Shown here piece after piece: positions 83 to 25,293 of a stretch of 28,431 bases of DNA (positions within the stretch are counted from its first letter, which is position 1; every line of letters begins with the position of its first letter). Position numbers and translations under genes: made by a program. The notes below the pieces were generated by a model. It was not told the DNA's origin and did not search any database. It worked only from the letters and a program-made list of their open reading frames with translations. This stretch comes from a virus, in IMG/VR virus record IMGVR_UViG_3300034101_005340, positions 1 through 28,431 of that record. One strand, 5' to 3'.

Positions 83-781
83 TTACATTCCGCCGTAGCC
101 GCCACCCATTCCAGTGCCGCTACCGCCGCCTTGACCGCCGCCACCCATTCCAGCACCCATACCACCGCCCATGCCGCCCATGCCACCACCAAAGCCGCCA
201 CTCATATCACCAGAGCCTTGATCTGCGCCACCTGCTCCTGCGCCGCCACTCATATCACCACCTGTTGGCGGTGCGCTTACATTTGGAGCGCCTTCAGGAG
301 AACCTTCTTCTCCACCTTCTTCTTCTCCACCCTCTTCTTCTCCCTCTTCTCCTTCTTCATCTTCTCCAGAAATACTCTTGATAAGATTATCGAGTTGATT
401 TAAAAGATCTTCAATTTGTCCACCCTTGTCTTCATCTTGACTCTTGAAATTTTCAATTTGATTTTTAAGAGTTTCAATAGCTGACTTAGTGCTTTCTGTA
501 TCTGATCCACCTTCGCTTGGTGCAACATTTGATTCATCGGTGTCTGCTGGCGCATCACCTTGTTGACCTTGTTGATTTTGGAAAGTATTCATTTGATCTT
601 GTGGGATCTGTGCTTGTGCAGAAAAATCTGGTTGACCACCAGCAGGAGGAGCGCCAGCATTGCCACCACCCATGGGGTTAGGATTTTGCATCATACCGGG
701 CATCGGCATGCCACCTGCATCTTGTTCTCTAAAAACCCTTTTGTTTTCAAGAATTCTGTACATCTCATAAAAAGTCTTCAT
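83..781 (-). CDS. Gly/Met-rich acidic protein with capsid-targeting-like N-terminus
   Basis: This 232-aa protein was not recognised as a known family. It begins MKTFYEMYRILENKR, an amphipathic peptide much like the T4 capsid-targeting sequence, with RILE|N as a possible prohead-protease site. A Met/Pro/Gly/Gln-rich stretch follows, then a predicted coiled coil (about residues 98-138), a Glu/Gly block (about 140-165), and a tail of Gly-Gly-Met type repeats to the end. The start has a good ribosome site (TAGGAG, 6 nt upstream). It sits 8 nt downstream of the gp14-like neck gene on the same strand, so the two are probably co-transcribed. Composition and context suggest a virion or prohead-core component, but this is inference. 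The low-complexity tail makes distant homology searches unreliable. Confidence 0.8.
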   Translation of the reverse strand: MKTFYEMYRILENKRVFREQDAGGMPMPGMMQNPNPMGGGNAGAPPAGGQPDFSAQAQIPQDQMNTFQNQQGQQGDAPADTDESNVAPSEGGSDTESTKSAIETLKNQIENFKSQDEDKGGQIEDLLNQLDNLIKSISGEDEEGEEGEEEGGEEEGGEEGSPEGAPNVSAPPTGGDMSGGAGAGGADQGSGDMSGGFGGGMGGMGGGMGAGMGGGGQGGGSGTGMGGGYGGM

Positions 782-789
782 ATTTACTC

Positions 790-1326
790 CTAAACTATCT
801 TAAAATCAGCGTTTTCAGTCTTTCCAACAGATGAACCACTAACAGTATCTTCTTGGAATCTCTGACAAATAAGTTGTAGTCTCAATGCATTATATAGTTT
901 AAACTCACCTAATTTTCTTTCAATAATGACCCAATCTTCATTTAAAAATGGAGTCTTGACTCTACTACCTATTTTAGGTGGGTGACCAAGATCCCTTAAA
1001 ACTGCACGATAGTTCAAATCAAATGTCATTTCATCAGGTGAATCTATACCAAAAGCAGTTTGCATATTTTGGGAAGGAATTGGTTCGTATACACACCATA
1101 GTTGTATAGGATTTTGACTATAAATTTTTGCTCTTGATTCAACATAAAGAGGATCAATATTATTTGCATCTATGAAAAGTTCATAATAGAACAATGGTGA
1201 TCCGCCCAGACGGATTGTTTCTTCATCATAAAGATCAAACAAGCTTCTTTCTGGCAATCCATCATCGAATTGCTGCAAGCTTCCTGTGGGACAATATGGT
1301 TTTCCATCTGGTTTATATATTGTCAT
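790..1326 (-). CDS. Putative neck/head-completion protein, T4 gp14-like
   Basis: 178 aa. The C-terminal half (from about residue 95) reads DEMTFDLNYRAVL, then PPKIGSRVKTPFLNEDWVI, then a run ending in LQLICQRF. This has the layout of T4 gp14: DEVTLSIN, then EPKEGDLIYFP, then SLFEI and a closing strand. The protein is shorter than gp14 (about 256 aa), mostly at the ends. In T4, gp14 with gp13 forms the neck that closes the DNA-filled head and receives the tail; a gp13-like gene lies at 4338-5225 on the other strand, which supports the reading. The start has AAGGAAAAA just upstream of ATG and lies 7 nt after the preceding gene. A different head-tail connector family remains possible. Confidence 0.6.
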   Translation of the reverse strand: MTIYKPDGKPYCPTGSLQQFDDGLPERSLFDLYDEETIRLGGSPLFYYELFIDANNIDPLYVESRAKIYSQNPIQLWCVYEPIPSQNMQTAFGIDSPDEMTFDLNYRAVLRDLGHPPKIGSRVKTPFLNEDWVIIERKLGEFKLYNALRLQLICQRFQEDTVSGSSVGKTENADFKIV

Positions 1327-1333
1327 TTTTTCC

Positions 1334-1738
1334 TTAAGTACAACTGTTAAGAGAAATTTGTGCTGTAATCAGGATCTGTCCACCACTTCCGGGCAATTGA
1401 AAAGGAGCAGCGGTAAATCTTTCAATCCATAGTAAATCACCACCGACATTTGTAATATAATATCCAAAAACAGTTGCAGCTGCTGTAATATTAAATGTTT
1501 GTTCTGGATAGCTTGCAGTGGTAACACCAGAAGTTGTTGCAACTGTCCAAGTTGCTGCTGTTAGAGTGATGCCTGCATATCCAGTAGCAGTAACTTGTGT
1601 TATATCACCTAACACAGTAGTTGAGCTTGGTGTTAAATTATTTGAGTAAAGACGCAACACAGTATTTGTTGGTGCTACCTTATTAAGCATATTGCTTAAA
1701 AGAACTACTTCGCCAACATCTGGAATTACTAATGCCAT
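1334..1738 (-). CDS. Small virion structural protein, Ser/Thr-rich beta fold
   Basis: 134 aa starting MALVIPDVGEVVLLSNML. The pattern is an N-terminal helix, then 'VLRLYSNNLTPSSTT', a GYAG turn, alternating Thr/Ala/Val strands and a closing GGQILITAQISL. I recall this architecture from a family of small phage structural proteins of unknown exact position, but could not check it. No signal peptide or catalytic motif is visible. The ATG has a strong ribosome site (TAGGAG) and a TATATATA element about 27 nt upstream, consistent with late expression. It leads the minus-strand set that continues with the gp14-like gene and the Gly/Met-rich gene. It could be a head decoration, neck or tail surface protein. 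Confidence 0.75.
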   Translation of the reverse strand: MALVIPDVGEVVLLSNMLNKVAPTNTVLRLYSNNLTPSSTTVLGDITQVTATGYAGITLTAATWTVATTSGVTTASYPEQTFNITAAATVFGYYITNVGGDLLWIERFTAAPFQLPGSGGQILITAQISLNSCT

Positions 1739-1758
1739 GAAAAACTCCTAGTTAATTC

Positions 1759-1772
1759 GATCTATATATATT
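1759..1772. promoter_or_regulatory. Shared TATA-type element between divergent genes
   Basis: An AT-rich block reading TCTATATATATTTAG on the plus strand, and CTAAATATATATAGA on the minus strand, separates the divergent genes at 1738 (minus) and 1776 (plus). It resembles the T4 late-promoter core TATAAATA on both strands. It lies about 27 nt from the minus start but only about 4 nt from the plus ATG, so the plus transcript would have almost no leader. No -35 box is evident. Inference only. Confidence 0.35.
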
Positions 1773-1775
1773 TAG

Positions 1776-2375
1776 ATGGTAATTCATAAAAAAGATGGAA
1801 GTGTTTTTAAATTAAATGGACCTAATGAAATTATGTTCACACAGGAATCGTGGAGTGCCTTCAAAACACACAATTTATCAAACTTATCAAATTGCAAAAT
1901 GGAATCAAATATTCCTCATGTTATTTTAGGAAAGAAGAAAATTGTTGAAGAAAATAAGGTAATTGAACCAATTAAAGAAGAAATTGTTGAAGAAGAAATT
2001 GTTATTGAAGAAACTCCTGAAGAAATTGTCGTTGAAGAAGTTGTTGAAGATAAAAAGAAAACAAATGAATTTGATAATTTTAAAAAAACTATTATGCATT
2101 GTGCTTTAGCAAAGAAAATAGAAGTGAAAGATGATTTGTATGGTGAAACTGCATTAAAGGTAAAATTTATTGATAAATTTACATTTGAATCTATAGTTAT
2201 GAACAAAAATGATTTTGTACTTATATTTTGGACAAAACTAGATAATTTGACAATTGGATCTGTGTTATATCCACAAGATGATTCAAAAAGATGGTGGGAA
2301 GTGAGAGAAATTGAGGATGTTCCCGGTGGTCACAAGATTACTTGTTGTATCACCAGAAACACCCCTGCTTTTTAA
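1776..2375 (+). CDS. Hypothetical protein with Glu/Val/Ile-rich linker
   Basis: 199 aa, not recognised. An N-terminal segment (about 1-55, MVIHKKDGSVFKLNG) is followed by a strongly acidic Glu/Val/Ile linker (about 56-95). A compact C-terminal domain (about 98-199) follows, with alternating hydrophobic strands (FVLIFWTKL, SVLYPQDDSKRWWEV, HKITCCITR). The two-domain plan joined by a charged stalk suggests an assembly or adaptor protein. There is no obvious ribosome site; a TATA-type element abuts the ATG. The last 4 nt overlap the convergent 641-aa gene. Confidence 0.75.
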   Translation: MVIHKKDGSVFKLNGPNEIMFTQESWSAFKTHNLSNLSNCKMESNIPHVILGKKKIVEENKVIEPIKEEIVEEEIVIEETPEEIVVEEVVEDKKKTNEFDNFKKTIMHCALAKKIEVKDDLYGETALKVKFIDKFTFESIVMNKNDFVLIFWTKLDNLTIGSVLYPQDDSKRWWEVREIEDVPGGHKITCCITRNTPAF

Positions 2376-4297
2376 GTTATTGCTTTATCCATCATCTCAC
2401 CTATTGCTGCTCGAACAGCAGCAGCATCAGCATCTTTGCCAAATCTTTTTCTCATTGTTCCAGAAACTCCTAAATTCTTTTTATATAATACATAACTTAG
2501 GCTACTCATTAAACTTCTCAAGGTTTGTGAAATGACAGTTTGTGCAAGTCTTGTCGCTATTGGACGAGTTAAATTAAAAAGTCTTAAATTCCTTAAAGCT
2601 TTATCTTTTATTAGATTTTTAAAAGCTAAATATGTTGTTGGCGATATGATTCCTTCTTCAGGATCATAAAATGTTTTCAAGAAAATATTAAATCTTCCCT
2701 CATAATTTTCTTTTACGAATTTTTTAACAAGTTCATCAAATAAATCATCATCACCCATTACAAGCATAAGGTTTTCTAAATTTTGATTTAAATCTTGTCT
2801 GCCCGGTCCTGCTTCATATTCAGATGATTTATTTGGGTATACACCTCCCGCCAATGTTCTATCTCTTTTGTCTAAATCTTCTGGAACATCTCTTTCATTA
2901 TCAAATTGATAAAATATTGGTTTTCTTTTTCGATTTGCAGCAGGTTGTTCTATATCTCTTGGATCATAATGATGTCCAACTCTACGAGTTGCTTCCAAAT
3001 TTCTGATCAGATCTCCTAATCTTTGAACTTCTTCTGGATCTTCTTTTGCTTCTGCGTCTGCAACTTTTTTTTGTAATTTTTCTATTGTTTGATTAATGTT
3101 AAAAAGTATTTTACCCGGAAGCAATTCTGGCATCGTTTGACCGGGATGATGAGGATTAGCTACTGTAGGATGTCTTAACTTTGAGAAAGACATTGTATCA
3201 AAGTCTTCACCATGATAATTTTGTATTGGATATGTGATTAAATCTATATCAACTAAAGCATCAATTAATTTTTCTTCAAATTTAACACTGTGTTCAGCAT
3301 GTTGAACAATATGTGATAAATTGTTAAATGTCATTTTATGTGGATTTCTTATATTGACTTCCTTTCTTAAATCATCAGCAAATCTAGCTCGATTTGCTAA
3401 TAAGTACGAATATATATCAGTATTTGGTTTCTTAAGTTGAAATTTTTTATTTAAAATGGTTACATCTTTTTGTGTAAGTGCTTTTTTAATAAATTTTTCT
3501 TCTAATTCTTTTATGTATTTTGCATACTTGTTGTACAATGGTGTCCTATAGATATCTCTTTCTATTTCTTCTTCTGTAGCTTCAGTGTTTGCAGCATATT
3601 CAGTTTTTGATCTTTCTCTGTGTGTTTTTGGATCTATAGTATTCGGTGCATGTAAAAGTCCTTGTGAGGCATATGTTACCCAAGATTGTAAATTGTTTGA
3701 AATTTGTTTTACTTGTGGACAAGTAAAACCAATAGTGTACCAGTTACCAACTGGATTTTCAGGATCGAAATTTCTAATTTTGCTTAAATCAAAACCAACT
3801 GCACTTGCTCCTCTTGGTCCTTCCAGTCTATCAACTAATTCTCTAATATAATTATTTTTTATTGTTGTAGATGTTGCTCGTTTTCTAATAACGAAACTAT
3901 ATTCTGTTCTTGGATAATTGATGTTCATCCAAGCTCCACCACCATCTGGTCTTTGTGCCAATTCACTATCAATAAAGTTTTTTGCATTATTATATGCACT
4001 TTCTCTGATTCTTGTTACTTCTTCAGGCTGATTGCCTTTGTAAGTCAATCCTTGATATATTCCGTCTGCTGCATCTTGTATTGTTTCGTAATAACCTTTA
4101 CTGAATCCTTTAATTTTTTTCTTTCTAGCTTCTTCTCTCTGCGTAAGTGCTGCGGGTAAATCAAGTCCATATCGCTCTTCAATGGCTCTTGCCCATACAG
4201 ATTGTGGAAATTGATGTAGAAAATCCATATCATCGTTTCCGAACAGATGAAAGTCGTGACTTACATGTCCAGAAAAGTATTCACTAAAAAGTTTCAT
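2372..4297 (-). CDS. Large hypothetical protein, probable virion or internal protein
   Basis: 641 aa, unrecognised. It begins MKLFSEYFSGHVSHDF, matching the M-K-x-F-x-E-Y opening shared by several proteins here, though no clear L-x-E cleavage site follows. The sequence is soluble, charged and mostly helical, with Lys/Glu-rich helices around residues 225-290 and 385-440, and no transmembrane segment or known catalytic motif. The C-terminus (about 560-641) is basic and Ala-rich. The start has TTGAGG 7 nt before the ATG and a TATATATA element about 30 nt upstream, so strong late expression is likely. Its place among neck genes and its size suggest a structural or capsid-internal role, but that is inference. 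Confidence 0.75.
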   Translation of the reverse strand: MKLFSEYFSGHVSHDFHLFGNDDMDFLHQFPQSVWARAIEERYGLDLPAALTQREEARKKKIKGFSKGYYETIQDAADGIYQGLTYKGNQPEEVTRIRESAYNNAKNFIDSELAQRPDGGGAWMNINYPRTEYSFVIRKRATSTTIKNNYIRELVDRLEGPRGASAVGFDLSKIRNFDPENPVGNWYTIGFTCPQVKQISNNLQSWVTYASQGLLHAPNTIDPKTHRERSKTEYAANTEATEEEIERDIYRTPLYNKYAKYIKELEEKFIKKALTQKDVTILNKKFQLKKPNTDIYSYLLANRARFADDLRKEVNIRNPHKMTFNNLSHIVQHAEHSVKFEEKLIDALVDIDLITYPIQNYHGEDFDTMSFSKLRHPTVANPHHPGQTMPELLPGKILFNINQTIEKLQKKVADAEAKEDPEEVQRLGDLIRNLEATRRVGHHYDPRDIEQPAANRKRKPIFYQFDNERDVPEDLDKRDRTLAGGVYPNKSSEYEAGPGRQDLNQNLENLMLVMGDDDLFDELVKKFVKENYEGRFNIFLKTFYDPEEGIISPTTYLAFKNLIKDKALRNLRLFNLTRPIATRLAQTVISQTLRSLMSSLSYVLYKKNLGVSGTMRKRFGKDADAAAVRAAIGEMMDKAIT

Positions 4298-4322
4298 TCA
4301 TGTTCCTCAATTTGACTGTTAC

Positions 4323-4336
4323 TTTATATATATAAA
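4323..4336. promoter_or_regulatory. Palindromic TATA element, candidate bidirectional late promoter
   Basis: TTTATATATATAAA is a perfect 14-bp palindrome in the 40-nt gap between the divergent starts at 4297 (minus) and 4338 (plus). Both strands read TATATATAAA, close to the T4 late core TATAAATA. On the minus side there is a leader of about 30 nt with a GAGG ribosome site. On the plus side the ATG follows one base after the palindrome, without a ribosome site. No -35 box is visible. Confidence 0.45.
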
Positions 4337-4337
4337 C

Positions 4338-5225
4338 ATGTCATATTCTTGTGCTTCAAATACTATGTATTTTCCCCGTCCAAGTGCGGAGTCGCAAAAT
4401 TGTAGTACTAATAATTTCAATCTTGGGGTTTCTGATCCCCTTGATATTGCTCAATTATCACCAAGACCAAACAGAACAAAAGTAAAAGCACAAATTAGAG
4501 ATTATATTCTTTTAATGCTTGGTGCTCCAGTAGTTACAATTGAATTAGATAGTCAACAACTTGATGCTGCTGTTGATTTATCTCTTCAGATTTATGAAGA
4601 ATATGCACCAAGAGAATTCTTTAAATACCATGTGTTCCAGACAATTCCCGGTAAAAGCATTTACACAATGCCTCCAGATATTGGTTATGTAAGAAATGTT
4701 TTTTACAAACAAATGGCAACATTTAGTTTTAGTTCTTCTGACCTTGGTGGAGCTATTCCTATTGAATATTTTTATCCGGGTGGAGCATATGCTTCTATTA
4801 CAGGTGGTATGATTGATAGTGTGACTCCAATTTGGGGTCGAGTTGGAGAATGGAGTCTTTACAAAGAATATGAAAGAACTTATGCTCGTAGTGCAAGTAA
4901 TTTAGGTGGTTGGGAATGGCTTGGTGGTTATCAAAATATTAAATTATATCCAATTCCGAGAGCACCAACTGCTGTTATTGTTCATTATTTGCAAAAAAAC
5001 AATGATTGGCAGAGAGTTAATCAGGCTATGCAAGAAGGTGCTTTAGCGCATGCAAAGATTATGTTAGGAAGAATTAGAGGCAAATATACAACATTGCCCG
5101 GTGCTCAGGGTGGAGTTCAGTTAGATGGAGCTACTTTGTTGACAGAGGGGATTCAAGAAAAGAAGGATTGGGAAGAAAGATTGATTACCAGATATGGCGA
5201 TATTCCTTTCATTTCAATGGGATAA
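4338..5225 (+). CDS. Neck/head-completion protein, T4 gp13-like
   Basis: 295 aa. After an N-terminal extension of about 45 residues comes the segment 'IRDYILLMLGAPVVTIELD' with QLDAAVDLSLQIYEEY. This parallels the T4 gp13 opening (LKD-ILRRLGAP, VELT-DQI, AL-LYGEYH), and the next strand ends in YHVF as in gp13. The C-terminus has the gp13-type LPG-GG-V-LDG motif followed by a Glu-rich helix (about 250-285). gp13 joins the portal side of the packaged head to the tail with gp14. The start lacks a ribosome site and follows a TATA palindrome; the downstream gene begins 3 nt after the stop. Confidence 0.75.
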   Translation: MSYSCASNTMYFPRPSAESQNCSTNNFNLGVSDPLDIAQLSPRPNRTKVKAQIRDYILLMLGAPVVTIELDSQQLDAAVDLSLQIYEEYAPREFFKYHVFQTIPGKSIYTMPPDIGYVRNVFYKQMATFSFSSSDLGGAIPIEYFYPGGAYASITGGMIDSVTPIWGRVGEWSLYKEYERTYARSASNLGGWEWLGGYQNIKLYPIPRAPTAVIVHYLQKNNDWQRVNQAMQEGALAHAKIMLGRIRGKYTTLPGAQGGVQLDGATLLTEGIQEKKDWEERLITRYGDIPFISMG

Positions 5226-5228
5226 TAC

Positions 5229-5861
5229 ATGAAAACATTCAAAGAATATGTCGAATTAAGAGAAACAAAAACAAATTTGCTCCAGCAAGGAAAAGGTTGG
5301 CTTGGTGGACTTGTAAAATCTGCTGGTAAATTTGCAGCTTCATTTATTCCGGGCGCAGACGCAGCAAGTGCAGCTGTGGATATGGCTACACAAATATATA
5401 ATGTCAAGAAGCAAAAAGGAAAAGTAAATGAATTAATTAGAAAAGCAGCATCTTTACCAGATAATAGTAGAGGATCTGTAAAGAATGGAGATATTTTTGA
5501 TGTTTCTGACACTTTGTGGAATACAGTTAATAAAGACTCTCAAGATAAAATTATAAATATTGTTGACAAAAATTTAGATAGATATATTGCAGCTAATCAG
5601 ATGCCTAAACCTAGTTTTGCTGACATGCTTGCTCACAAGTATGTTATTGGTAAATTACCAAGAGCAACATCTAAAATAGTTCCTGTACAAGGACAAGCAG
5701 CGCCACAACAAGGTCAAGCTGCACCACAACCACAACAAGCAGCACCACAACAAGGACAGCAACGTCAAGCTGCACCACAACAACCACAACAACCACAGCA
5801 ACGTCAAGCTGCACCACAACAACCACAACAACCACAGCAACGTCAAGCTGTTCGTCGTTAA
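5229..5861 (+). CDS. Targeting-peptide protein with Gln/Pro/Ala repeat tail
   Basis: 210 aa. It opens MKTFKEYVELRETK, close to the T4 capsid-targeting peptide MKTYQEF, with ELRE|T as a possible cleavage site. Residues about 22-60 are Gly/Ala-rich and helical (KGWLGGLVKSAGKFAASF). Residues about 60-150 form a conserved-looking helical domain (SDTLWNTVNKDSQDKIINI, MPKPSFADMLAHKYVIGKL). The tail from about 157 is built of QAAPQQ/QQPQQ repeats ending in VRR. Function is unknown; a capsid-internal or DNA-associated structural role is inferred. It lies directly behind the gp13-like gene and probably shares its transcript. Confidence 0.8.
   Translation: MKTFKEYVELRETKTNLLQQGKGWLGGLVKSAGKFAASFIPGADAASAAVDMATQIYNVKKQKGKVNELIRKAASLPDNSRGSVKNGDIFDVSDTLWNTVNKDSQDKIINIVDKNLDRYIAANQMPKPSFADMLAHKYVIGKLPRATSKIVPVQGQAAPQQGQAAPQPQQAAPQQGQQRQAAPQQPQQPQQRQAAPQQPQQPQQRQAVRR
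5697..5850 (+). repeat. Gln/Pro/Ala-encoding tandem repeats
   Basis: Degenerate CAA/CCA-rich repeats encode the tail of the gene at 5229. The clearest part is a 39-nt unit starting CAACGTCAAGCTGCACC at 5760 and 5799, with a partial third copy at 5838. Such in-frame repeats can change copy number without breaking the gene. Reverse-strand reading frames here (Leu/Trp and Val runs) are shadows. Confidence 0.8.
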
Positions 5862-5891
5862 AAATATTTAGCATTAAAGATAAATAACAAT

Positions 5892-6350
5892 ATGATCAAT
5901 TATAATGAGTTTATAAAAGCATTGAATGAAGGCTCACAGAATATGAGATATTCTGTTGAGGTTAATTTCGATACACCTAAAGAAGATTGTTTAGTTTCTT
6001 ACGCAAAAATAGTTCTTGGTTATGTTAGTGCAGCAATGAAGAAGATGGATTATCATGTTAAGCTTGTGTTTTCACATAAGCCATTAAGATTGATTGTTGC
6101 TTCTAGAAATTGGGATGATGGGGAATGGGTTGGGATGATTTCTTACAATGAAGAAAAAGATCATTTCACTTTATCAAAAGGTTTTTATAACAAACTTAAG
6201 AAAACAGTTGCAGTTCAAGACACTAGTACAATAAGTGATCCCGTAAATGCAAAGATATTATCTTACAAATTACGGGATTTAATGAAAGATTTAGAGGGCA
6301 AAAAGGATCGATTTGCCCCCGAATTTAGAAAATTAAGAATCAATCTTTAA
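5892..6350 (+). CDS. Hypothetical protein with near-consensus capsid-targeting peptide
   Basis: 152 aa, unrecognised fold. The opening MINYNEFIKALNEGSQ is the best match in the window to a T4-type targeting peptide: it has the hydrophobic spacing and then ALNE|G, fitting the gp21 rule (L/I-x-E before a small residue). The rest is an alpha/beta domain (about 18-152) with a basic C-terminus. Cleavage after Glu13 would leave a mature protein of about 139 aa. GATAAATA, a good T4-late-type core, sits 8 nt before the ATG and there is no ribosome site. The 3' end overlaps the convergent gene by 11 nt. Confidence 0.75.
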   Translation: MINYNEFIKALNEGSQNMRYSVEVNFDTPKEDCLVSYAKIVLGYVSAAMKKMDYHVKLVFSHKPLRLIVASRNWDDGEWVGMISYNEEKDHFTLSKGFYNKLKKTVAVQDTSTISDPVNAKILSYKLRDLMKDLEGKKDRFAPEFRKLRINL

Positions 6351-6708
6351 TAATTTTAATATTGGAGCAAGGACTTTCGACTAGAAGAACTTCATCTAGA
6401 TGTTCTTGTTCGCCTTCCTTAAGGATCTTCTTCTTGCTGGTTTGACCTGCTGCAACGTGTTCAACCTTGCCTTCATTTGTTACGATAGGTGGTTGGTCAA
6501 GAATAAGCTTACTTTCCACGATTACCTCTTTCTGCTTATAGGGTCCAATAAAACGAATCATACCAACTTTGACAAATTCGAAAAAATCTTTTTCTGCCAA
6601 GAATTGTCCTCTTGGCTTAATCATTTCCAGACCCTTATAAGCAGGTCTAGAAAGTTTTAAATCATAGTTGTGATGATTTTCAAAAAGAAACAGTTCTGGG
6701 ATATTCAT
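6340..6708 (-). CDS. Hypothetical protein
   Basis: 122 aa counted from ATG at 6708 (MNIPELFLFENHHNYDL). An upstream in-frame ATG at 6768 would add a hydrophobic stretch reaching into the divergent gene and is less likely. The N-terminal part looks beta-rich (PRGQFLAEKDFFEFVKVGM, IRFIGPYK). The C-terminal half is charged (GKVEHVAAGQTSKKKIL). No family recognised, no membrane segment. Only 15 nt separate its start from the divergent winged-helix gene. Confidence 0.7.
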   Translation of the reverse strand: MNIPELFLFENHHNYDLKLSRPAYKGLEMIKPRGQFLAEKDFFEFVKVGMIRFIGPYKQKEVIVESKLILDQPPIVTNEGKVEHVAAGQTSKKKILKEGEQEHLDEVLLVESPCSNIKIIKD

Positions 6709-6723
6709 AACTATATTATAGTA
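6709..6723. promoter_or_regulatory. Compact shared promoter between divergent starts
   Basis: Only 15 nt (core CTATATTATAG, a near-palindrome) separate the start codons at 6708 (minus) and 6724 (plus). Neither gene has a ribosome site in this gap. If transcription starts here, at least one mRNA would be leaderless; alternatively promoters lie inside the opposite coding region. Inference from spacing and base composition. Confidence 0.3.
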
Positions 6724-7059
6724 ATGAATAATAAAAAAATGCCAAACTGGTATGAAATATATCCCCAAGGAACACCTGAAGGGGAAGAAGAAAAGAAATT
6801 TTTCTTATCTTTGATTAGGAATAAAAAATATAAAAATTGGCGTAGCGTGTCTGCTATTTCAAAAGAATCAGGATTGACAGAAGAAAAAATTGAACAAATT
6901 ATATTCAAATACCATAAAATTGGACTTATAATTCAAAGCCCCGCTAACTCAGAGTTCTGGGGTTACTATTACAATAATTTAGAAGATGTTAAAGAAGATC
7001 CAATTTCTGTAATCGAAGAAGAAAGAAAAAAAATTCTTAAAAAAGCTAAAAATCCTTAA
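6724..7059 (+). CDS. Predicted small winged-helix protein
   Basis: 111 aa from ATG at 6724 (MNNKKMPNWYEIYPQG); ATG at 6739 (MPNWYEIY) is an alternative. After the WYEIYPQGTPEGEEEKKFF start comes an arrangement typical of a winged helix: a helix (KKFFLSLIRN), SAISKESGLTEEKIEQII as the helix-turn-helix, then KYHKIGLIIQSP with WGYYYN as the wing. The C-terminal 25 residues are a charged helix. This suggests nucleic-acid binding, perhaps as a small regulator or adaptor; the target is unknown. The final 4 nt overlap the minus-strand remnant gene ending at 7056. Confidence 0.75.
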   Translation: MNNKKMPNWYEIYPQGTPEGEEEKKFFLSLIRNKKYKNWRSVSAISKESGLTEEKIEQIIFKYHKIGLIIQSPANSEFWGYYYNNLEDVKEDPISVIEEERKKILKKAKNP

Positions 7060-7195
7060 GCCATTGGTATAAAACAACTTTCATAATAATAAAAACGGAT
7101 ATAGGCATCGGAACAAACCCAATGCGCTATACCAGTTCTTCTTATGTTTTCAAAAATATTTTATCTCTTGATTCGAGATATTCCATAAACTTCAT
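7056..7195 (-). pseudogene. Frameshifted tandem paralogue of the 66-aa gene at 7195-7395
   Basis: The ATG at 7195 overlaps the TAA of the upstream gene (TAATG), which suggests translational coupling. Frame 0 reads MKFMEYLESRDKIFLKT then stops. After a one-base shift at the T5 run (about 7149-7153) the sequence continues ENIRRTGIAHWVCSDAYIR and runs to PMA and a stop at 7056. That part aligns with NAKRGGIATWAYPDAYAR of the neighbour, sharing N, R, GIA, W, DAY, R, Y, F and P. The restored product would be 46 aa. The N-terminus is again of the targeting-peptide type. The break could be a real indel, a homopolymer assembly error or a programmed -1 shift; the slippery site is not canonical. Confidence 0.65.
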
Positions 7196-7395
7196 TACTT
7201 GGAATTAACTTTTCTTCCAATTCCCAACTTAAATGCCGCATCAGCTGCTATTGGCATAAAGTAGTTAGAAGGATACTGACCTCTTGCATAAGCATCAGGA
7301 TAAGCCCAAGTAGCGATACCGCCTCGCTTGGCGTTCTCGTTAACAGTAGGAACCTTCAAGTTATTTTCAGTTGCCCAATCGGTAAATGTTTTCAT
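7195..7395 (-). CDS. Small targeting-peptide protein
   Basis: 66 aa. It begins MKTFTDWATENNLKVPTVNE, with the shared M-K-T-F-x-D-W opening and TVNE|NAK as a possible cleavage site. The remaining core (about 27-66) contains RGGIATWAYPDAYARGQYPSN and a basic end (KLGIGRKVNSK). It is small, basic and aromatic after the putative cleavage, as expected of a packaged internal peptide, but the function is unknown. A GTGAGGAC ribosome site precedes the ATG, and a CTAAATA element lies about 31 nt upstream. It is followed, with a 1-nt overlap, by a related frameshifted copy. Confidence 0.75.
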   Translation of the reverse strand: MKTFTDWATENNLKVPTVNENAKRGGIATWAYPDAYARGQYPSNYFMPIAADAAFKLGIGRKVNSK

Positions 7396-7425
7396 TTATG
7401 TCCTCACAAAAAGTCATCCTTTACT

Positions 7426-7434
7426 TATTTAGAT
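7426..7434 (-). promoter_or_regulatory. Candidate late promoter (CTAAATA type)
   Basis: On the minus strand ATCTAAATAAG lies about 31 nt before the ATG at 7395, with a GAGG ribosome site between. CTAAATA also occurs upstream of the minus-strand genes starting at 1738 and 25260, and resembles the T4 late core TATAAATA. Confidence 0.35.
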
Positions 7435-7469
7435 GTGTGCTCACATTTTTTAATTAAAATGACTAAAAA

Positions 7470-8021
7470 ATGACCAAAAAATTAATACCGATTATTGTTA
7501 CATCAATTCAAGAAATATCCCAAGAAAACGCATTTGAATCGAGTATCTTATGTAATTGCTGTAAAACAATTTCTCGGATGGTTAATGATTCTGGATTATG
7601 TGCGTTTTGTTTTAAAAAAATAGAACAATTTAACAACATCAAGGTTTTTAACTTTAAACCTTGTTATTATCTTTTTATGAAAATTGGCATTCAAAAAACA
7701 ATAATGGAAGAAATTGAAGCAGAACAAACGAATATTGGTTTGTTTACGAATTATATGGAATACAGTCCAAATAATATGATTTGGTATGTATACAGAGATA
7801 TAGAACCGAAAGAATTGTTTACTAAAGTTGAAGAAATGTACAATTTGTTTAAACAGACAGGATTGTTTGACAAATCTTTCTATAAACTAAATATTGAAAA
7901 AACAAGAAGTTTATTTTTTAATAAAAATAAATTTATTTGCATAGGATTTAATTTTGCAGAACTATCTGATGACAATTATTTATCAGCAAGTTTTTTTGAT
8001 AAAGAGCGGATTTTCTTGTGA
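7470..8021 (+). CDS. Hypothetical protein with N-terminal zinc-ribbon-like Cys cluster
   Basis: 183 aa, no family recognised. Residues about 28-47 hold C-N-C-C followed 13 residues later by C-x2-C (CAFC), a plausible zinc-binding knuckle. The rest is an alpha/beta domain rich in Phe, Tyr, Asn and Lys (MEYSPNNMIWYVYRDIEPK, FICIGFNFAEL). No membrane segment is evident. There is no clear ribosome site at 7470; a nearby ATG at 7460 opens a frame that stops at once. Confidence 0.7.
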   Translation: MTKKLIPIIVTSIQEISQENAFESSILCNCCKTISRMVNDSGLCAFCFKKIEQFNNIKVFNFKPCYYLFMKIGIQKTIMEEIEAEQTNIGLFTNYMEYSPNNMIWYVYRDIEPKELFTKVEEMYNLFKQTGLFDKSFYKLNIEKTRSLFFNKNKFICIGFNFAELSDDNYLSASFFDKERIFL

Positions 8022-8045
8022 TTTTTCTTAAAAGTATGCTATTTT
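8016..8045 (+). promoter_or_regulatory. Sigma70-like promoter with extended -10
   Basis: TTGTGA (8016-8021), an 18-nt spacer, then TATTTT (8040-8045) preceded by TGC give a host-type extended -10 promoter ahead of the gene at 8089. The same ATGCTAT extended -10 occurs before the gene at 19915. Together with the strong ribosome site downstream this predicts high expression. Confidence 0.4.
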
Positions 8046-8088
8046 AATTATGCAGATGTTGTTAAGTTTTTTGTTAAAGGAGCGTCAG

Positions 8089-8451
8089 ATGAGCGAAGCT
8101 AAGACCAAGAGTGCTACAAAGTCAACCACCAAGACTTCAGTGCCAGCAAATTCCATTCGTTACAAGATTGTAACGAAGCTTTCTGGTGTTAACGAAGTTT
8201 ATGAAGCAACGGCTGAAATTTCCGGCTTCAAGGCTACAAAGGTTACCCGACAGGATGGCACTACTGCCTTCACTACTCGTTCCGCTCTTACTAAGGCTTG
8301 CAAGGATCGTGCAGCTTCCCTCAAGCGTATTCCAATCTTTGATCTTGGTTCTGCAACTGTTGCACCTAGCAAGAAGGCAAAGGCACCAAAGGCTGGTAAG
8401 GTTGTTACCTTCTGCTCAACTGGTTGTCCAGTAACGGGCGCATGCTCTTAA
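8089..8451 (+). CDS. Small basic Lys/Ala/Thr-rich protein, apparently highly expressed
   Basis: 120 aa from the ATG at 8089, which has AAAGGAG 5 nt upstream; the longer frame from 8050 lacks this and is rejected. The N-terminus is a Lys/Thr/Ser tail (MSEAKTKSATKSTTKTS). It is followed by a compact domain (about 20-90) with IRYKIVTKLSGVNEVYEATA and a Lys/Arg-rich helix, then a Lys/Ala/Pro linker and a Cys end (CSTGCPVTGACS). Codons such as AAG, AAC and GTT dominate, unlike the AAA/AAT-rich neighbours, which suggests translational optimisation. Composition suits a nucleic-acid-binding protein, but no family was recognised. A strong terminator follows. Confidence 0.8.
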   Translation: MSEAKTKSATKSTTKTSVPANSIRYKIVTKLSGVNEVYEATAEISGFKATKVTRQDGTTAFTTRSALTKACKDRAASLKRIPIFDLGSATVAPSKKAKAPKAGKVVTFCSTGCPVTGACS

Positions 8452-8465
8452 GTTAATTTAAATTT

Positions 8466-8517
8466 AAAAAAAACAAGACCTAATCGTAATTTTTAATGAT
8501 TAGGTCTTGTTTTTTTA
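8466..8517 (+). terminator. Strong intrinsic terminator
   Basis: AACAAGACCTAATC (8472-8485) pairs perfectly with GATTAGGTCTTGTT (8498-8511) around a 12-nt loop, preceded by A8 and followed by a T-run. The A/T flanks extend the stem. It closes the gene at 8089-8451 and could act on either strand. Confidence 0.85.
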
Positions 8518-8545
8518 TTATTATTCATGAATTGTATTCTTACTT

Positions 8546-8569
8546 GATATATAATATTAAATGGAGGCG
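8546..8569 (+). promoter_or_regulatory. TATA element and ribosome site before the CGCG gene
   Basis: GATATATAATA (8546-8556) resembles the other TATA-type elements of the window. A strong GGAGGCG ribosome site (8563-8569) sits just before the ATG at 8572. The element follows the terminator at 8466-8517, so this gene probably begins its own transcript. Confidence 0.4.
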
Positions 8570-8571
8570 AT

Positions 8572-8790
8572 ATGGGTTGCGGATGTGGTGGTAAAAAAGG
8601 CACAATGCCCAACAGAAACGTAGTTAGAAACACTTCTATACAACAAAATATTGTCAGATCTATTGGAACTGGAGTTACTGAAGCTTTAAATCAACAAATA
8701 ACAACACCAGTTGGTATGGACAAAAATCGTTTAGAAGTTGAAAAAAAAAGAAGAGAAGCTATTAAAAAGTCTCTAGGAAAAATGATCTAA
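8572..8790 (+). CDS. Small CGCG-motif hypothetical protein
   Basis: 72 aa beginning MGCGCGGKKGTMPNRN. Two closely spaced cysteines (C3, C5) within a Gly-rich start are followed by a basic, mostly helical body (VRNTSIQQNIVRSIG) and a Lys/Arg-rich C-terminal helix (NRLEVEKKRREAIKKSLGK). The Cys pair could bind a metal. Function unknown. Strong GGAGG ribosome site. It precedes the acidic protein by 39 nt. Confidence 0.75.
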   Translation: MGCGCGGKKGTMPNRNVVRNTSIQQNIVRSIGTGVTEALNQQITTPVGMDKNRLEVEKKRREAIKKSLGKMI

Positions 8791-8793
8791 GTA

Positions 8794-8809
8794 TCTATAT
8801 ACAATAAAT
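8794..8809 (+). promoter_or_regulatory. TATA-type element before the acidic protein gene
   Basis: TCTATATACAATAAAT lies about 21-36 nt upstream of the ATG at 8830, with TTTGGAG as ribosome site in between. It fits the window-wide pattern of a T4-late-like core followed by a leader of 20-35 nt. Confidence 0.35.
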
Positions 8810-8829
8810 TGTATTTTTGGAGAACCAAC

Positions 8830-9870
8830 ATGCTCAATTATGAAAAGTGGAAGAAACTCAATGAGAGCTTTATGATGTCATCACCAATTGGTGGCATTAC
8901 CCATAACAATGGGTTCCTTGCTTATAGTCCTCTCTCTGAAGCCGAAATGGACAGAGATGAAGATGAAGACATGGAAGATGAAGACATGGAAGACGAAGAC
9001 ATGGAAGACGAAGATATGGAAGATGAAGACATGGATGATGAAGATATGGAAGATGAAGATATGGAAGATGAAGATATGGATGATGAAGATATGGATGATG
9101 AAGATATGGATGATGAAGACATGGATGATGAAGACATGGATGATGAAGATGATGGAGAAATGGAAATTCAAGATGATGCTGGAGAAATTGAAGAAATAGA
9201 AGATGGTGATGAATCAGAAGATTCTGATGACGGTGCTGTTCATCATCATCACCACCACTACCATGGTCATAAGAATAAAGAAGCATATAGCGATGATGCA
9301 GATGAAGAAGCTGGCAATGAGATGATGTGCAAGCGTTGTGGTTCTTACATGGCTAACGAAAATCATGATTGTGGCATTGATGAGTGGGCTGCTAGTGTTA
9401 AGTCTTTGATTAATCCAGTTATTTTACAGAAGCTTAATGGTAAGATTTTGACTGAAGCATCATTCAAGGGTGCTAAAATTGATATTAAAGATGGTGAAGT
9501 TGGTTCTGTTGGTGCTGTAAAGTCTAAATTAAAAACTTTCCTTGATGGTGTCGAAAGTCAAATTGACAGCATGACTGATAGACAAAGATATTCAATTCTT
9601 TCCAGTGTTGTTAACGCTTTGGTTACCGATGCTGAACTTCCTGACTTCTTGAAGTTTATCAAAATGGAAAAAAGTTCAATTGTGAAGAGTGACCCAAAAG
9701 AAACAGAAGAAAAAATGTATAAGGGTAGAGTCTCCAAGAAGAAAAGTGGTCCATGCAAGAAGTGTTCAACTAGCATGAAATTTATGCCAGCAAAATCAGG
9801 CAAGTATGCTGGCAAAAATATGCCAACAAAATCAGGCAAGTATGCTGGCAAAAAAATGAAAAAGAAATGA
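8830..9870 (+). CDS. Targeting-peptide protein with acidic pentapeptide repeats, His run and zinc knuckle
   Basis: 346 aa from ATG at 8830; GGAG lies 7 nt upstream, so the start at 8809 is rejected. Order: targeting-like MLNYEKWKKLNESF with KLNE|S; acidic EDMED/EDMDD pentapeptides (about 41-107) and more Asp/Glu to 135; a His run HHHHHHYHGH (138-147); a CKRCG...H-D-C knuckle (C167, C170, H179, C181); a helical domain (about 190-290); and a basic tail with CKKC and twice KSGKYAGK. Acidic prohead-core proteins such as T4 gp67 are similarly charged, so a scaffold or packaged internal protein is plausible. The very acidic middle and very basic end may allow self-association or DNA contact. Exact function unknown. 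Confidence 0.8.
   Translation: MLNYEKWKKLNESFMMSSPIGGITHNNGFLAYSPLSEAEMDRDEDEDMEDEDMEDEDMEDEDMEDEDMDDEDMEDEDMEDEDMDDEDMDDEDMDDEDMDDEDMDDEDDGEMEIQDDAGEIEEIEDGDESEDSDDGAVHHHHHHYHGHKNKEAYSDDADEEAGNEMMCKRCGSYMANENHDCGIDEWAASVKSLINPVILQKLNGKILTEASFKGAKIDIKDGEVGSVGAVKSKLKTFLDGVESQIDSMTDRQRYSILSSVVNALVTDAELPDFLKFIKMEKSSIVKSDPKETEEKMYKGRVSKKKSGPCKKCSTSMKFMPAKSGKYAGKNMPTKSGKYAGKKMKKK
8958..9152 (+). repeat. 15-nt acidic-pentapeptide tandem repeats
   Basis: About 13 degenerate copies of a 15-nt unit (GAAGATATGGATGAT type) encode Glu-Asp-Met-[Glu/Asp]-Asp. They stay in frame, so unit gain or loss would change only the length of the acidic arm. Reverse-strand open frames here are shadows. Confidence 0.85.
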
Positions 9871-9886
9871 GGTAGCACTTAACTAC

Positions 9887-10786
9887 TTAGCCTCCCATGC
9901 AGTTTGCATGGGAGGCTATTTTTTTTGCATCATTGATTTGCTGAACCAAATCATTAGGCATAAAATTAAAAATAAAACCAAGAAGTCTATCAGCTTCAAA
10001 TTTATTACAATTATTAATTGCATCTTTGATAATATTCACATCATAACCAAAACAATTATATGAAATCTTATCACCAATTGTAACAGTCCAGAATTTTTCC
10101 CAAATCTTTTCGATCATTTCATTGTAAACGAAATCAGTTAAAGAATAAACCAATGCTGTATATTCTGGTTTGCCAATCCACCAAGAACTCAAAACTCTAT
10201 ATTCAATTCCATAATTCTTTGGTCTAAAAGATCCAGCTCTACCAAAAACCTTCCTTCTATCAATTTGACTTAAATCATTGTCTATAGCAACAGACGTTAA
10301 ACCTAAAAATAAATCAAGCATGTAAACAAACAAAGGTTTAATAATCGGATCAAGCAGAATTTCATCTCCAACAGATCCAATGTGCAAATGTCCACCTGAA
10401 GTCCTTACAGAACTATTTTTAATAAAGTTTTTAGGTTCTGTGTTTATCATCAACGTATATGCGTTGTATTCGTCGTCACAGCCACTTTCTTTTGCATTAG
10501 CATCTTGCAGCACACTTTGCTCAATGATAGCAGCAGCTGTCAAATCGACCTTATAAGGAGATGCTAGTTTTTCTAACAGATAAACGCCGTTTGTGATATT
10601 TGTGATAAATTCTCGTGCATTATTGCATGGAGGAATATTAAATTCTGCTAAAATATTATCATAATATATTTTTATTTTTTGTTTTTTGTAAGGATTATCT
10701 TTGTCATGTGTAATATGCTTTGCAGCATTAATTACTTGATCAGAAGAATTGCGTAGGAAACACTCTACATCTGATCCTATTTGCAC
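9887..10786 (-). CDS. Phage COOH-NH2 amidoligase, phiEco32 type
   Basis: 299 aa. The order of motifs matches the glutamine-synthetase-fold COOH-NH2 ligases first described in phage phiEco32: IGSDVECFLR (3-12), DNILAEFNIPP (43-53), GCDDEYNAY (102-110), RTSGGHLHIG (128-137) and RRKVFGRAGSFRP with YGIEYRVLSSWW (177-203). Such enzymes use ATP to join a carboxylate to an amine; the natural substrate of the phage members is unsettled, with wall peptides or virion proteins suggested. GTG start with GAGG 8 nt upstream. Length is normal and all recognisable motifs are intact. It is followed by the ADP-ribosyltransferase-like gene further upstream on the same strand. Confidence 0.85.
   Translation of the reverse strand: MQIGSDVECFLRNSSDQVINAAKHITHDKDNPYKKQKIKIYYDNILAEFNIPPCNNAREFITNITNGVYLLEKLASPYKVDLTAAAIIEQSVLQDANAKESGCDDEYNAYTLMINTEPKNFIKNSSVRTSGGHLHIGSVGDEILLDPIIKPLFVYMLDLFLGLTSVAIDNDLSQIDRRKVFGRAGSFRPKNYGIEYRVLSSWWIGKPEYTALVYSLTDFVYNEMIEKIWEKFWTVTIGDKISYNCFGYDVNIIKDAINNCNKFEADRLLGFIFNFMPNDLVQQINDAKKIASHANCMGG
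9888..9926 (+). terminator. Intrinsic terminator embedded in the end of the convergent gene
   Basis: AGCCTCCCATGCA and TGCATGGGAGGCT form a perfect 13-bp stem with a 3-nt loop, followed by T8. It ends the plus-strand gene stopping at 9870. The same bases encode the last codons (HANCMGG) and stop of the minus-strand amidoligase gene, so terminator and coding sequence are superimposed. There is no T-run on the minus strand. Confidence 0.9.
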
Positions 10787-10860
10787 AACAAAATCCTCTG
10801 ATGATAGATGATACTAATAAATTAGAATCATTGAATAATTAATTAAAGAAAATATAATTA

Positions 10861-11763
10861 CTAGTCATCATTTCCATATGTTTCTAAAAGCCAAGACAAT
10901 GCTCTAGCATATTGTTTTGGATATAGATAATAATGGAATATTTTAATAAATTCTTGTGCAATGCTTTCTGATCTAATAATTTGATTTGTTATTTGTTTCA
11001 ACGCACTTGTTGCCCTTATTGCAGATTTTGTGACTTTCTCAGCTAATCTTTTTACAAACTCATCAGCATCAAAATCGTCTTCAGGCAAAAACAATTTATC
11101 CTCATGCTTCAACATACTGTTTCTGTTTTGATATGTTTTGTCACTTTTAAGATCTATATCTTTATACTTTTCAAGAAATTCTTCTAAATTAATTTTTTCC
11201 CAATTATTATCTCTTTCTGAAAATGAAATAATTTTATCTGGATTTAAATTTCCAGTAAATAAAGCTTGATATTCAGAACTATCAAAAAGCACTTTAGTCA
11301 TATAGGGATTATCACTAGATTTAACAAATTCAGGTTGGTTTTGATCATTTCTTATTTCGTTTTCAAATCTTTTTTTAGTTGCCAATCTTTCAACCTTGCT
11401 TCTAAATGTTGGCATATAAGAACCTTGTGTACCATATGATCCCTGTACCCAAACTGGTGGTTCTAGATCTTCGTATTTTGCAATAAATTCTACAACGCAC
11501 CCATCAAGAGCAAAATCTCTAGCTGTTTTTTCTGATATTGTGACAAATAGTCCTTTAGGATTTGTGTTTGCTTCATAAGAATATTTCCTAGCGGGTCTTA
11601 ACTGTCCTGAAATGCCATATCTAGCTGCAATTATTGCTTCTGTGACATTGTCAAACCCATGGAAAACTCTTACAGTGTCTCCTCTTTTCAAAGGTTCAAA
11701 ATCACCTCGCATGTTGTCATATTTGTGCAAATGCTCGTTTAGCCAATCATAAAATGTATTCAT
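10861..11763 (-). CDS. Putative ADP-ribosyltransferase-like protein with targeting peptide
   Basis: 300 aa from ATG at 11763; the longer frame to 11808 adds a hydrophobic extension and lacks a ribosome site. It opens MNTFYDWLNEHLHKYD (WLNE|H). Residues about 31-35 give RVFHG, then PKGLFVTISEKTARDFA (about 73-89) with VVEF. Later comes SSEYQALFTGNLNPDKIISF (about 167-186). This order, His-Gly, then a [FY]-x-[ST] strand with helix, then a Glu-bearing strand ahead of 'P-x-x-I', resembles ADP-ribosyltransferases of the H-Y/F-E kind. The C-terminal third is helical and basic. T4 Alt is a packaged, injected ADP-ribosyltransferase, so a similar role is attractive. Not proven: the catalytic Glu is not certain. 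Confidence 0.6.
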   Translation of the reverse strand: MNTFYDWLNEHLHKYDNMRGDFEPLKRGDTVRVFHGFDNVTEAIIAARYGISGQLRPARKYSYEANTNPKGLFVTISEKTARDFALDGCVVEFIAKYEDLEPPVWVQGSYGTQGSYMPTFRSKVERLATKKRFENEIRNDQNQPEFVKSSDNPYMTKVLFDSSEYQALFTGNLNPDKIISFSERDNNWEKINLEEFLEKYKDIDLKSDKTYQNRNSMLKHEDKLFLPEDDFDADEFVKRLAEKVTKSAIRATSALKQITNQIIRSESIAQEFIKIFHYYLYPKQYARALSWLLETYGNDD

Positions 11764-11768
11764 AATGC

Positions 11769-11776
11769 TATTTATG
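11769..11776 (-). promoter_or_regulatory. CATAAATA late-type core
   Basis: The minus strand reads GTCATAAATAG just 5 nt before the ATG at 11763. It differs from the T4 late core TATAAATA at one base. No ribosome site lies between, so transcription from here would give a nearly leaderless mRNA. Confidence 0.35.
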
Positions 11777-15950: not shown

Positions 15951-16362
15951 GAGACATTAGCTTGCTGTCAAAATTGTGGAATTCACTTCCACTGTATTGC
16001 ATGTTGATTTCCCTAAATTGAGTTTCTTCTAGTTCTGATGAAACATCAAAGTAAAAAAATCTATTTTTCTTTCCAAGTAAAATAAACTTGTGCATCAAAA
16101 TATAAGCTGCACAACCTAGATCGTTTGTAAAACAATTGCTTTTAATTTCAAATGGATATTCATCAAGTTTCTTCAAACTCATTAAACATGAATCGAAATG
16201 ATGAAATTCACTTGATAAATAACTTATTTTTAAATCTTCAAACTTTTTATTTTCATCTGAAACAACTTCAAACAAAAAACTTTTATCTTTTTTATCACGC
16301 AGTTTGTATTCATGCATAACAAGATAAGCAGCAATTCCAATATCTCTAATTTCTTTTAACAT
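15934..16362 (-). CDS. Tandemly duplicated small domain protein, DUF5659-like
   Basis: 142 aa made of two copies of a 65-70 aa unit. Copy 1 has IGIAAYLVMHEYKL, then SFLFEVVSDENKKF and SSEFHHFDSCLMSLKKL. Copy 2 has LGCAAYILMHKFILLGKK, then RFFYFDVSSE and GSEFHNFDSKLMSLKKI. Each unit, AAYL helix, hydrophobic strand, then F-x-x-FD-x-LMSLKK, resembles the small DUF5659-type domain scattered in phages. Function unknown. The ATG overlaps the stop of the actin-like gene (TGATG), so the two are translationally coupled; a role with the filament protein is possible. Confidence 0.75.
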   Translation of the reverse strand: MLKEIRDIGIAAYLVMHEYKLRDKKDKSFLFEVVSDENKKFEDLKISYLSSEFHHFDSCLMSLKKLDEYPFEIKSNCFTNDLGCAAYILMHKFILLGKKNRFFYFDVSSELEETQFREINMQYSGSEFHNFDSKLMSLKKIF

Positions 16363-18630: not shown

Positions 18631-19239
18631 TTAGCTGTTGCATTGAGAAACAACAGAATAAAGAGCTTCGATGTTGAATGTGCCAAATACGCCTGTTGCA
18701 CCAGACATCTGAGGCTGAACAGCGACTCTATTGATAGAAATATCGCCACCATTGAATACCTGAGTGCTGCCAGCTTCAAGGACAAAGATAGCGCCAGAAC
18801 TACCGTTAAGCTGAACAATTGCATTGTTACCAGAAGCAAGAGCACCAGCATTGGTAAGCTGCATAAAGGAAGCAAAGCTGCCAGTGTCGCCAGCAATGTC
18901 GATAATGTTGCCAGAAGAAACAAGAGTCTTACCAGAAGTAAGGGTGATGTTTGTTACTGCTGGATAGGTATTTTCGCTAGCAATGTCGCTGTAAACGCTA
19001 CCATCATCAGTAACAACTTCGATGAAAGCATCATCAACAGATACAGCTGGAACTGCAAATTGCTTCCAGTAGTTGCAATCGGTGAAGGTTGTACCGTCAG
19101 CGATCTCACGAATTTTGCCATTTGGTCCAGTTACAAACATAGTGCGCTGAACGCTAGTGGAGAACTCAACACCAGTAGCTGGATCAATGTCGAGAGTGCC
19201 CTGATTTCCCTGATTTAATTTTACTCGAAATACACTCAT
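18631..19239 (-). CDS. Abundant virion structural protein (decoration or appendage type)
   Basis: 202 aa. It starts MSVFRVKLNQGNQGTLDIDP, continues VQRTMFVTGPNGKIREIADG with TFTDCNYWKQFAVP and AFIEVVTDDGSVYSD, and has a long Ser/Gly/Ala/Thr beta-rich second half (about 90-202). I associate this layout with structural proteins of marine and freshwater phages. The gene has GAAGGAG as a strong ribosome site, its own TATA-type element, a strong terminator and a codon choice unlike the AT-rich neighbours, all signs of high output. It could decorate the capsid or form part of the tail. No enzymatic motif seen. Confidence 0.8.
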   Translation of the reverse strand: MSVFRVKLNQGNQGTLDIDPATGVEFSTSVQRTMFVTGPNGKIREIADGTTFTDCNYWKQFAVPAVSVDDAFIEVVTDDGSVYSDIASENTYPAVTNITLTSGKTLVSSGNIIDIAGDTGSFASFMQLTNAGALASGNNAIVQLNGSSGAIFVLEAGSTQVFNGGDISINRVAVQPQMSGATGVFGTFNIEALYSVVSQCNS

Positions 19240-25260: not shown

Positions 25261-25293
25261 TTTTATGCCCTACCTATTAATATTTAGTTTAAT

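Follow-up and report, generated by a model that had tools for sequence, protein, structure and literature searches.

The window analysed here is a whole virus record of 28,431 bases (IMG/VR record IMGVR_UViG_3300034101_005340), in which genes with different bodies begin with a common short peptide, M-x-x-[FY]-x-[ED]-[FYW], called the tag below. We consider it highly probable that these peptides are capsid-targeting sequences of the bacteriophage T4 type carried by a large set of cargo proteins, the tag being removed and the bodies being packaged in the head and presumably injected. Directly seen are the tag and its statistics, a conserved Glu at the junction of tag and body, a protease and T4-type head genes in related phages, and selection on the tag at the protein level. 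An earlier note on this DNA had proposed T4-like packaging of cargo by a detachable tag, and that proposal is supported by the protease of the relatives and by the concentration of the motif outside conserved genes; packaging itself, like binding to the core, cleavage, injection and the action of the cargo, is what we infer.

Tagged genes in the window

The earlier note named nine openings, of which seven are real ATG starts: those at 781-, 4297-, 5229+, 5892+, 7395-, 8830+ and 11763-, comprising six strict matches and a Lys variant, MLNYEKW. The common start thus stood for these genes, and it is enriched at gene starts in relatives. The opening at 7195- turned out to be a frameshifted remnant, and membership of the one at 20767- (MNNNKFVYDFKKWL), where the tag spacing is absent, is unsupported. 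The features concerned are as follows.

83..781, minus strand: tagged gene of 232 amino acids (aa) with a Gly-rich/acidic body; tag MKTFYEMYRILE at 781-746
2372..4297, minus strand: tagged gene of 641 aa that opens with MKLFSEYF; a search of residues 8-30 gave no [LIVM]-x-E
4338..5225, plus strand: untagged T4 gp13-like head-tail adaptor; PHROG 211 'head-tail adaptor Ad2' E=4e-16, phmmer from T4 gp13 E=1e-6
5229..5861, plus strand: tagged gene, 210 aa; tag MKTFKEYVELRE at 5229-5264
5881..5886, plus strand: TAAATA box, T4-late-promoter-like, 5 nt before the ATG at 5892 (from the sequence)
5892..6350, plus strand: tagged gene, 152 aa, with an RYSVEVNY core; tag MINYNEFIKALNE at 5892-5930, predicted cut E13/G14
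7056..7195, minus strand: frameshifted remnant of a second, differently tagged paralog, MKFMEYLESR..., intact in L099
7195..7395, minus strand: tagged gene, 66 aa; tag MKTFTDWATENNLKVPTVNE at 7395-7336, predicted cut before NAKRGG
8830..9870, plus strand: tagged gene, 346 aa, acidic repeats; tag MLNYEKWKKLNE at 8830-8865
10861..11763, minus strand: tagged gene, 300 aa, no function assigned; tag MNTFYDWLNE at 11763-11734
11769..11774, minus strand: TAAATA box, 5 nt before the ATG at 11763 (from the sequence)

Several of these starts recur in relatives. When start patterns were compared, MK[TSN]F[FY]E[MF][YW] starts resembling that of 83..781 were found, for example, in L003, L008, L012, L016, L031 and L038. 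Relatives of the 641-aa gene in L003, L008, L012, L014 and L025, 664-885 aa long, retain an M[KQR]LF start, while its homolog in G019 starts without it. The counterpart of 5229+ in the sister record G001 reads MKTFKEYVELRE followed by A. The frame that opens at 7195- with MKFMEYLESR is just 17 codons long; in L099 the second paralog is intact, with MKFMEYLESRDKKLFE and then TIRRTGIAHWAYP..., and the window retains its body in another frame with stops, so that 7195- is evidently a decayed tagged gene.

For the 152-aa protein an AlphaFold2 (AF2) model gave a predicted local distance difference test score (pLDDT) of 82 and a confident core, with residues 11-18 below 50; such poor confidence at these residues would be compatible with a removable leader. 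Foldseek searches of this model against PDB and BFVD gave no match with E<=0.001, and nothing convincing came from a PDB-sequence search. The 11763- protein had no convincing Pfam or PDB-sequence match, and its AF2 model (two near-identical sequences, pLDDT 33) was discarded. Its resemblance by eye to an ADP-ribosyltransferase gained no support from these searches, in which no Pfam family of such enzymes matched. For four further tagged proteins, three of them with ADP-ribosyltransferase-like-looking starts, PDB-sequence searches gave nothing useful (best hit, an RNA 2'-phosphotransferase with E=1.8).

Enrichment of the motif at gene starts

Long related records were sliced and their genes called with a simple home-made codon-usage caller. 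Because the choice of start is uncertain, every plausible start ATG was considered, meaning any in-frame ATG not more than 30 codons beyond the called start, with ATGs deeper in the same genes serving as the control. In the window, M..[FY].[ED][FYWM] stands at 6/69 plausible start ATGs and 1/121 internal ones (p=0.0098), a comparison in which the motif had been derived from those very genes. In nine related records, whose independence is incomplete (G001 is near-identical to the window in their overlap), the strict motif was found at 87/3917 plausible starts vs 9/8137 internal ATGs, a 19-fold enrichment (p=7e-33). The enrichment depends on the aromatic residues: with a small or aliphatic residue at position 4 or 7 it was gone (0.8-1.3-fold), and an apolar residue at position 6 left 1.9-fold (p=0.03). 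A form one residue shorter and forms with a polar residue 6 were enriched 4- to 8-fold, and a form with one extra residue was unenriched (10/3917 vs 13/8137). The most frequent form is MKTFx[ED][WYF], the general one M-x(1-2)-[FY]-x-x-[FYW], and W, F and Y are nearly equally interchangeable at residue 7. In G023, a 381-kb record that was not used in defining the motif, though it was fetched via a relative of the 66-aa gene, the strict motif occurred at 10/761 vs 1/1528 (p=1e-4) and the broad form at 45 vs 15.

A combined criterion, the strict motif or the broad motif plus [LIVM]xE, marks 159/2257 clade genes as tagged, with about 11 expected from internal ATGs. Per record the counts run from 8/86 (G011) up to 28/187 (G020), with 33/919 in the 595-kb uncultured phage LR756511.1, which, together with 39 viral loci, also holds relatives of the gp13-like neck protein at 4338-5225 of the window. 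Had the motif been equally common in other genes, the proposal would have lost its basis; it is present in 1/163 clade genes with homologs in five reference phages, a set that mixes virion and non-virion genes, vs 158/2094 of the others. At starts in five reference phages the strict motif was unenriched; KVP40, PA5oct, S-PM2 and 200 kb of phiKZ, pooled, gave 5/1774 vs 10/4044, and phage Munch 2/976 vs 2/1945. By the combined criterion KVP40 has 8 tagged genes vs 1.5 expected, and therefore may possess a smaller tagged set.

Tagged genes also differ in what lies upstream. T4-late-like boxes within 45 nt were found for 44/87 tagged vs 285/2053 untagged genes, and a TAAATA 3-6 nt before the ATG for 16/131 vs 49/2010; in LR756511.1, TAAATA 4-5 nt before the ATG precedes 7/26 tagged vs 13/857 untagged genes. 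Boxes so near the ATG would fit late expression, perhaps from nearly leaderless transcripts. A DNA pattern joining tag and box retrieved four contigs and a changed-box control one, numbers too small for the box to be proven by pattern search. Within the tag, codons for F4, E6, F7 and Y7 match genome usage (F4: TTC 25/TTT 49 vs 29.6/44.4 expected), while codon 3 favours ACA (25 vs 15.4 expected). Codon choice at residues 4, 6 and 7 being that of the genome, the motif appears to be selected as protein.

A glutamate site behind the tag

The earlier note had also seen [LI]-x-E behind several of the tags, and this was borne out both by enrichment and by conservation. Among 84 strict-tag proteins with distinct starts, 47 have [LIVM]xE at residues 8-20, vs 445/2039 untagged proteins (p=3.5e-11), while [LIVM]xD is depleted at the same residues (4/84 vs 320/2039). 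In this set, [LIVM]xK, xQ and xR behind the tag were not enriched, nor was [LIVM]xE at residues 41-61.

The junction Glu is retained in three families. In homologs of the 152-aa protein, Glu13 ahead of the RYSVEVNY core is invariant in 24/24 rows (24 of 53 rows of the alignment, trimmed to the matched part), and the residues before it are variable. In the 66-aa family, with 43 distinct sequences, a Glu stands 3-6 residues ahead of the core in 41/41 members with a recognised core; its paralogs have a common body and different tags. For 8830+, L/V-x-E12 is shared by 10/10 starts, that of the window and nine of like pattern in the clade, a count that omits an eleventh row, a 110-aa G020 gene judged to be a different gene.

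Protease and head genes in related phages

A gp21-type prohead protease, which the earlier note suggested seeking outside the window, is present in relatives. Pfam PF03420 scored above cut-off in 6/19 related records, in 4/10 further relatives and in 5/6 reference phages (phiKZ being negative), as well as in three of the five contigs found by the tag DNA pattern (2/4 with the TAAATA box, 1/1 with the changed control box). Searches of the 28-kb window did not find it, and one of them gave no signal in the control genomes either. H85, S140 and D168 (T4 numbering), which we take to be the catalytic residues, are common to eleven gp21 sequences, and the seven of these that come from the clade retain GELDHP and GxSSRGxG. 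The clade has homologs of gp17, gp20 and gp23, those of gp20, gp21 and gp23 lying within about 14 kb of each other. In 7/7 clade major capsid proteins, L-[IMF]-N-E aligns with F-L-T-E of T4 gp23, presumably the sequence at which T4 gp23 is cut. In several records the interval between the portal gene and the protease gene codes for small tagged proteins (W01 528598-528945, G016 190454-190855 and G011 68563-68871), and no homology to T4 gp22 could be detected for the gene that occupies the gp22 position. LR756511.1 holds, at 242621-242989 (L042), a second, diverged match to an S77 peptidase (E=3.5e-9), the main one being at 526118.

Bodies behind the tag

In all, 142 tagged proteins were scanned, 136 by criterion and six from G020 by hand, with G001, G003 and four genes split at slice borders omitted. 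Pfam (E<=0.001) gave 31 families (25 listed) with one or two members each, including ankyrin, NUDIX and an Acb1-like 2H phosphoesterase, and PHROGs gave 30 families (25 listed); most tagged bodies are without a recognised family. A phmmer comparison of five reference proteomes with the clade genes matched one tagged gene, whose best match was in PA5oct.

The tag appears to behave as an add-on. G023 carries at 226185-227908 (L245) tagged genes for a PolyA_pol-head protein and an AAA_33 P-loop kinase with a 4-base overlap, possibly an injected RNA-repair pair. In the listed homologs of the kinase in other phages (8 of 417 records), the alignment begins at query residue 11 or 14, and the kinase coding sequence of Vibrio phage Gary starts at that point, untagged. 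NUDIX homologs within the clade also occur untagged. The G016 gene at 209286-209843 encodes a predicted Acb1-like nuclease that would counter the cyclic-oligonucleotide-based antiphage signalling system (CBASS): PF23474 matched with E=1.5e-8 (34.9 bits vs a cut-off of 27), the wider 2H family PF13563 matched slightly better, and PDB Acb1 reached E=0.86 by sequence; its W01 homolog starts untagged. In G020, 13 of 15 consecutive genes at 42656-58729 (L151; 42.7-58.7 kb) match the tag pattern with different bodies, and this run is a possible cargo island. A Thg1-like body (G014) was dropped as cargo, since an in-frame internal ATG may be the true start and its homologs are untagged. PolyA_pol homologs in the huge phages LR745206.1 (L273) and LR756502.1 (L274) start with MILKKYKMFLESRES and MIITKYAKFLESIQ, perhaps a different leader of the same kind; S77 matches in these two were below cut-off only.

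Interpretation and alternatives

Put together, the proposed course of events would begin during head assembly, when the N-terminal tag would bind the prohead core. The gp21-family protease would then cut after the Glu of [LIVM]-x-E, usually 10-24 residues in; the released body would remain in the head with the DNA and presumably be injected at the next infection, where such bodies may target host defences, RNA or nucleotides ahead of the synthesis of new phage proteins.

A number of observations weigh against this. The phages are uncultured and known here from sequence alone, and gene starts depend on the home-made caller. In the pool of reference phages two polar variants were mildly enriched (16 vs 15 and 12 vs 9; 2.4- and 2.9-fold, p=0.01) and are therefore less specific, and 40-kb samples of LR745206.1 and LR756502.1 were unenriched. 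Late-like boxes reached p<0.05 singly in 4/9 records, and in T4 the count was 0/5. No clade homolog of T4 gp22, gp67, gp68, gp14 or gp19 was found; searches likewise found no protease in the window and its 91-kb sister contig, both of them fragments, or in the 381-kb G023, for which gp20 and gp23 also came out negative. An [LIVM]xE within residues 8-28 is missing from 26/84 strict-tag proteins. In G003 and G020, close homologs of 5892+ retain the core and start untagged, and two positions ahead of the Glu the 66-aa family has L/I/V in 33/41 members, Q or H in 6 and F in 2. Tag calls on SpoVR, ferritin-like and glycosyltransferase bodies are probably false and are still in the counts. Five of the 25 listed PHROGs have structural names (baseplate wedge twice, portal, tail sheath and minor head), with one member each.

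Those five names, the 26 proteins without a nearby site, the tagged small proteins between portal and protease genes, and the Gly-rich acidic product of 83-781, which could be a core component, would suit a reading in which the tag targets the prohead core, only part of the proteins is cut, and some tagged proteins belong to the core, the scaffold or the structure. This reading overlaps the cargo reading and does not exclude it, and we regard it as a tentative possibility; the junction Glu retained in three families speaks against it, as do the NUDIX, AAA_33 kinase, PolyA_pol and Acb1-like bodies, which are unlike scaffold. That the tag instead addresses another site, such as a membrane or a phage-made compartment, with head packaging uninvolved, is improbable. 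A short N-terminal aromatic stretch could indeed serve other targeting, packaging being deduced here; agreement with the T4 targeting positions, a Glu-specific site like the one in the clade's own major capsid protein and the gp21-type protease in relatives all favour the head.

Common ancestry is a very unlikely source of the common start. Small tandem paralog families exist, the 66-aa family among them, and one paralogous family could have diverged past recognition in its bodies; against that, the bodies belong to unrelated known families (ankyrin, NUDIX, P-loop kinase, PolyA_pol, 2H phosphoesterase), the kinase body is untagged in other phages, and the two 66-aa paralogs join a common body to different tags. 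Least credible of all is a by-product of a DNA or RNA signal, a late promoter or translation-start element entering the coding region: it would account for the TAAATA boxes that precede a number of tagged ATGs by 4-5 nt and for the preference for ACA at codon 3, while the F4, E6, F7 and Y7 codons follow genome usage and W, F and Y interchange nearly equally at residue 7.

The cargo reading can be carried a step further, to a proposition that we hold to be evenly balanced. Huge T4-type phages may bring with them a ready-made set of dozens of injected proteins, which in one record would reach about one-seventh of the called genes (28/187). The set would include Acb1-like counter-defence, RNA-end and nucleotide enzymes (kinase, poly(A)/CCA-type polymerase, NUDIX) and ankyrin effectors, recruited by a short removable tag, many of them made late from promoters close to the ATG, and acting before any phage gene is read. 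If the cargo reading is true, an address label readable from sequence marks the huge-phage genes delivered into the host at the start of infection, a sizeable share of dark genes becomes a testable list of injected, probably anti-defence proteins, and the cargo principle of T4 extends far past its close relatives and scales to dozens of cargos.

Other genes in the window

Three further observations concern the rest of the window.

9887-10786, minus strand: COOH-NH2 ligase-type protein of a phiEco32-like family
16362-17363, minus strand: actin-like protein with a full-length Pfam match to Volactin (E=5e-68), presumably an archaeal actin family
21649-28431, minus strand: two proteins of very large size with repeats (ATPSFTPAGP-type) and regions rich in Pro/Thr

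Comparison with known systems

In T4 itself (NC_000866) the strict motif was found at 5/439 plausible starts vs 3/875 internal ATGs (p=0.09), the hits being IPI, IPII, IPIII, gp61.1 and 57B. The gp61.1 gene (18966-19130, minus strand, 54 aa) has a CTS-like (capsid-targeting-sequence-like) start, MKTFKEFIKEDMVAGD..., and is weakly similar to gp23; 57B (73952-74410, minus strand), which we take to be Acb1, also has a CTS-like start, MMEFKDFSTG..., a tag match that may be a chance hit.

An N-terminal signal also loads the antirestriction protein DarB into the head of phage P1, where, as far as that source reports, Dar N-termini have no consensus and P1 has no separate scaffold (PMC9024508). The phages phiKZ and SPN3US resemble the present ones in being giant and in having cleaved head and ejection proteins, and differ in propeptides that are mostly long (PMC5694885); the first 200 kb of phiKZ are without the strict tag at starts, and phiKZ is negative for PF03420. 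T4 Alt offers a precedent for a packaged, injected enzyme (PMC9026906), whereas the tagged proteins described here include no demonstrated ADP-ribosyltransferase. The open-licence PMC literature, as far as it was surveyed, gave no description of a tag set of this kind in the huge phages studied here.

The closest likeness is to the capsid-targeting sequence of T4. For IPIII, targeting was assigned mainly to residues 4 and 7 and processing to residues 8 and 10 (PMC9026906). The T4 proteins Ip1-3 have the leader alone in common, each blocking a different GmrSD restriction enzyme, and at least 10 Ips were reported in related phages (PMC12373910). The present tags share with IPI, IPII and IPIII a short N-terminal peptide with aromatics at 4 and 7, an L/I-x-E-type site, unrelated bodies behind a common leader, a gp21-family protease and T4-type head genes. 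They differ in belonging to a distant lineage of huge phages, in numbering 7-33 tagged genes per fragment or record vs 5 in T4 by the same criterion, in a frequent Trp at 7 and a one-residue-shorter form, in their enzyme and ankyrin bodies, and in the TAAATA boxes close to some ATGs; no tagged body has a T4 protein as its best match. The new cargo repertoire announced in the earlier note is therefore a fair description as to scale and lineage, while its principle is the known capsid-targeting sequence of T4: what look new are the lineage, the scale and the cargo.

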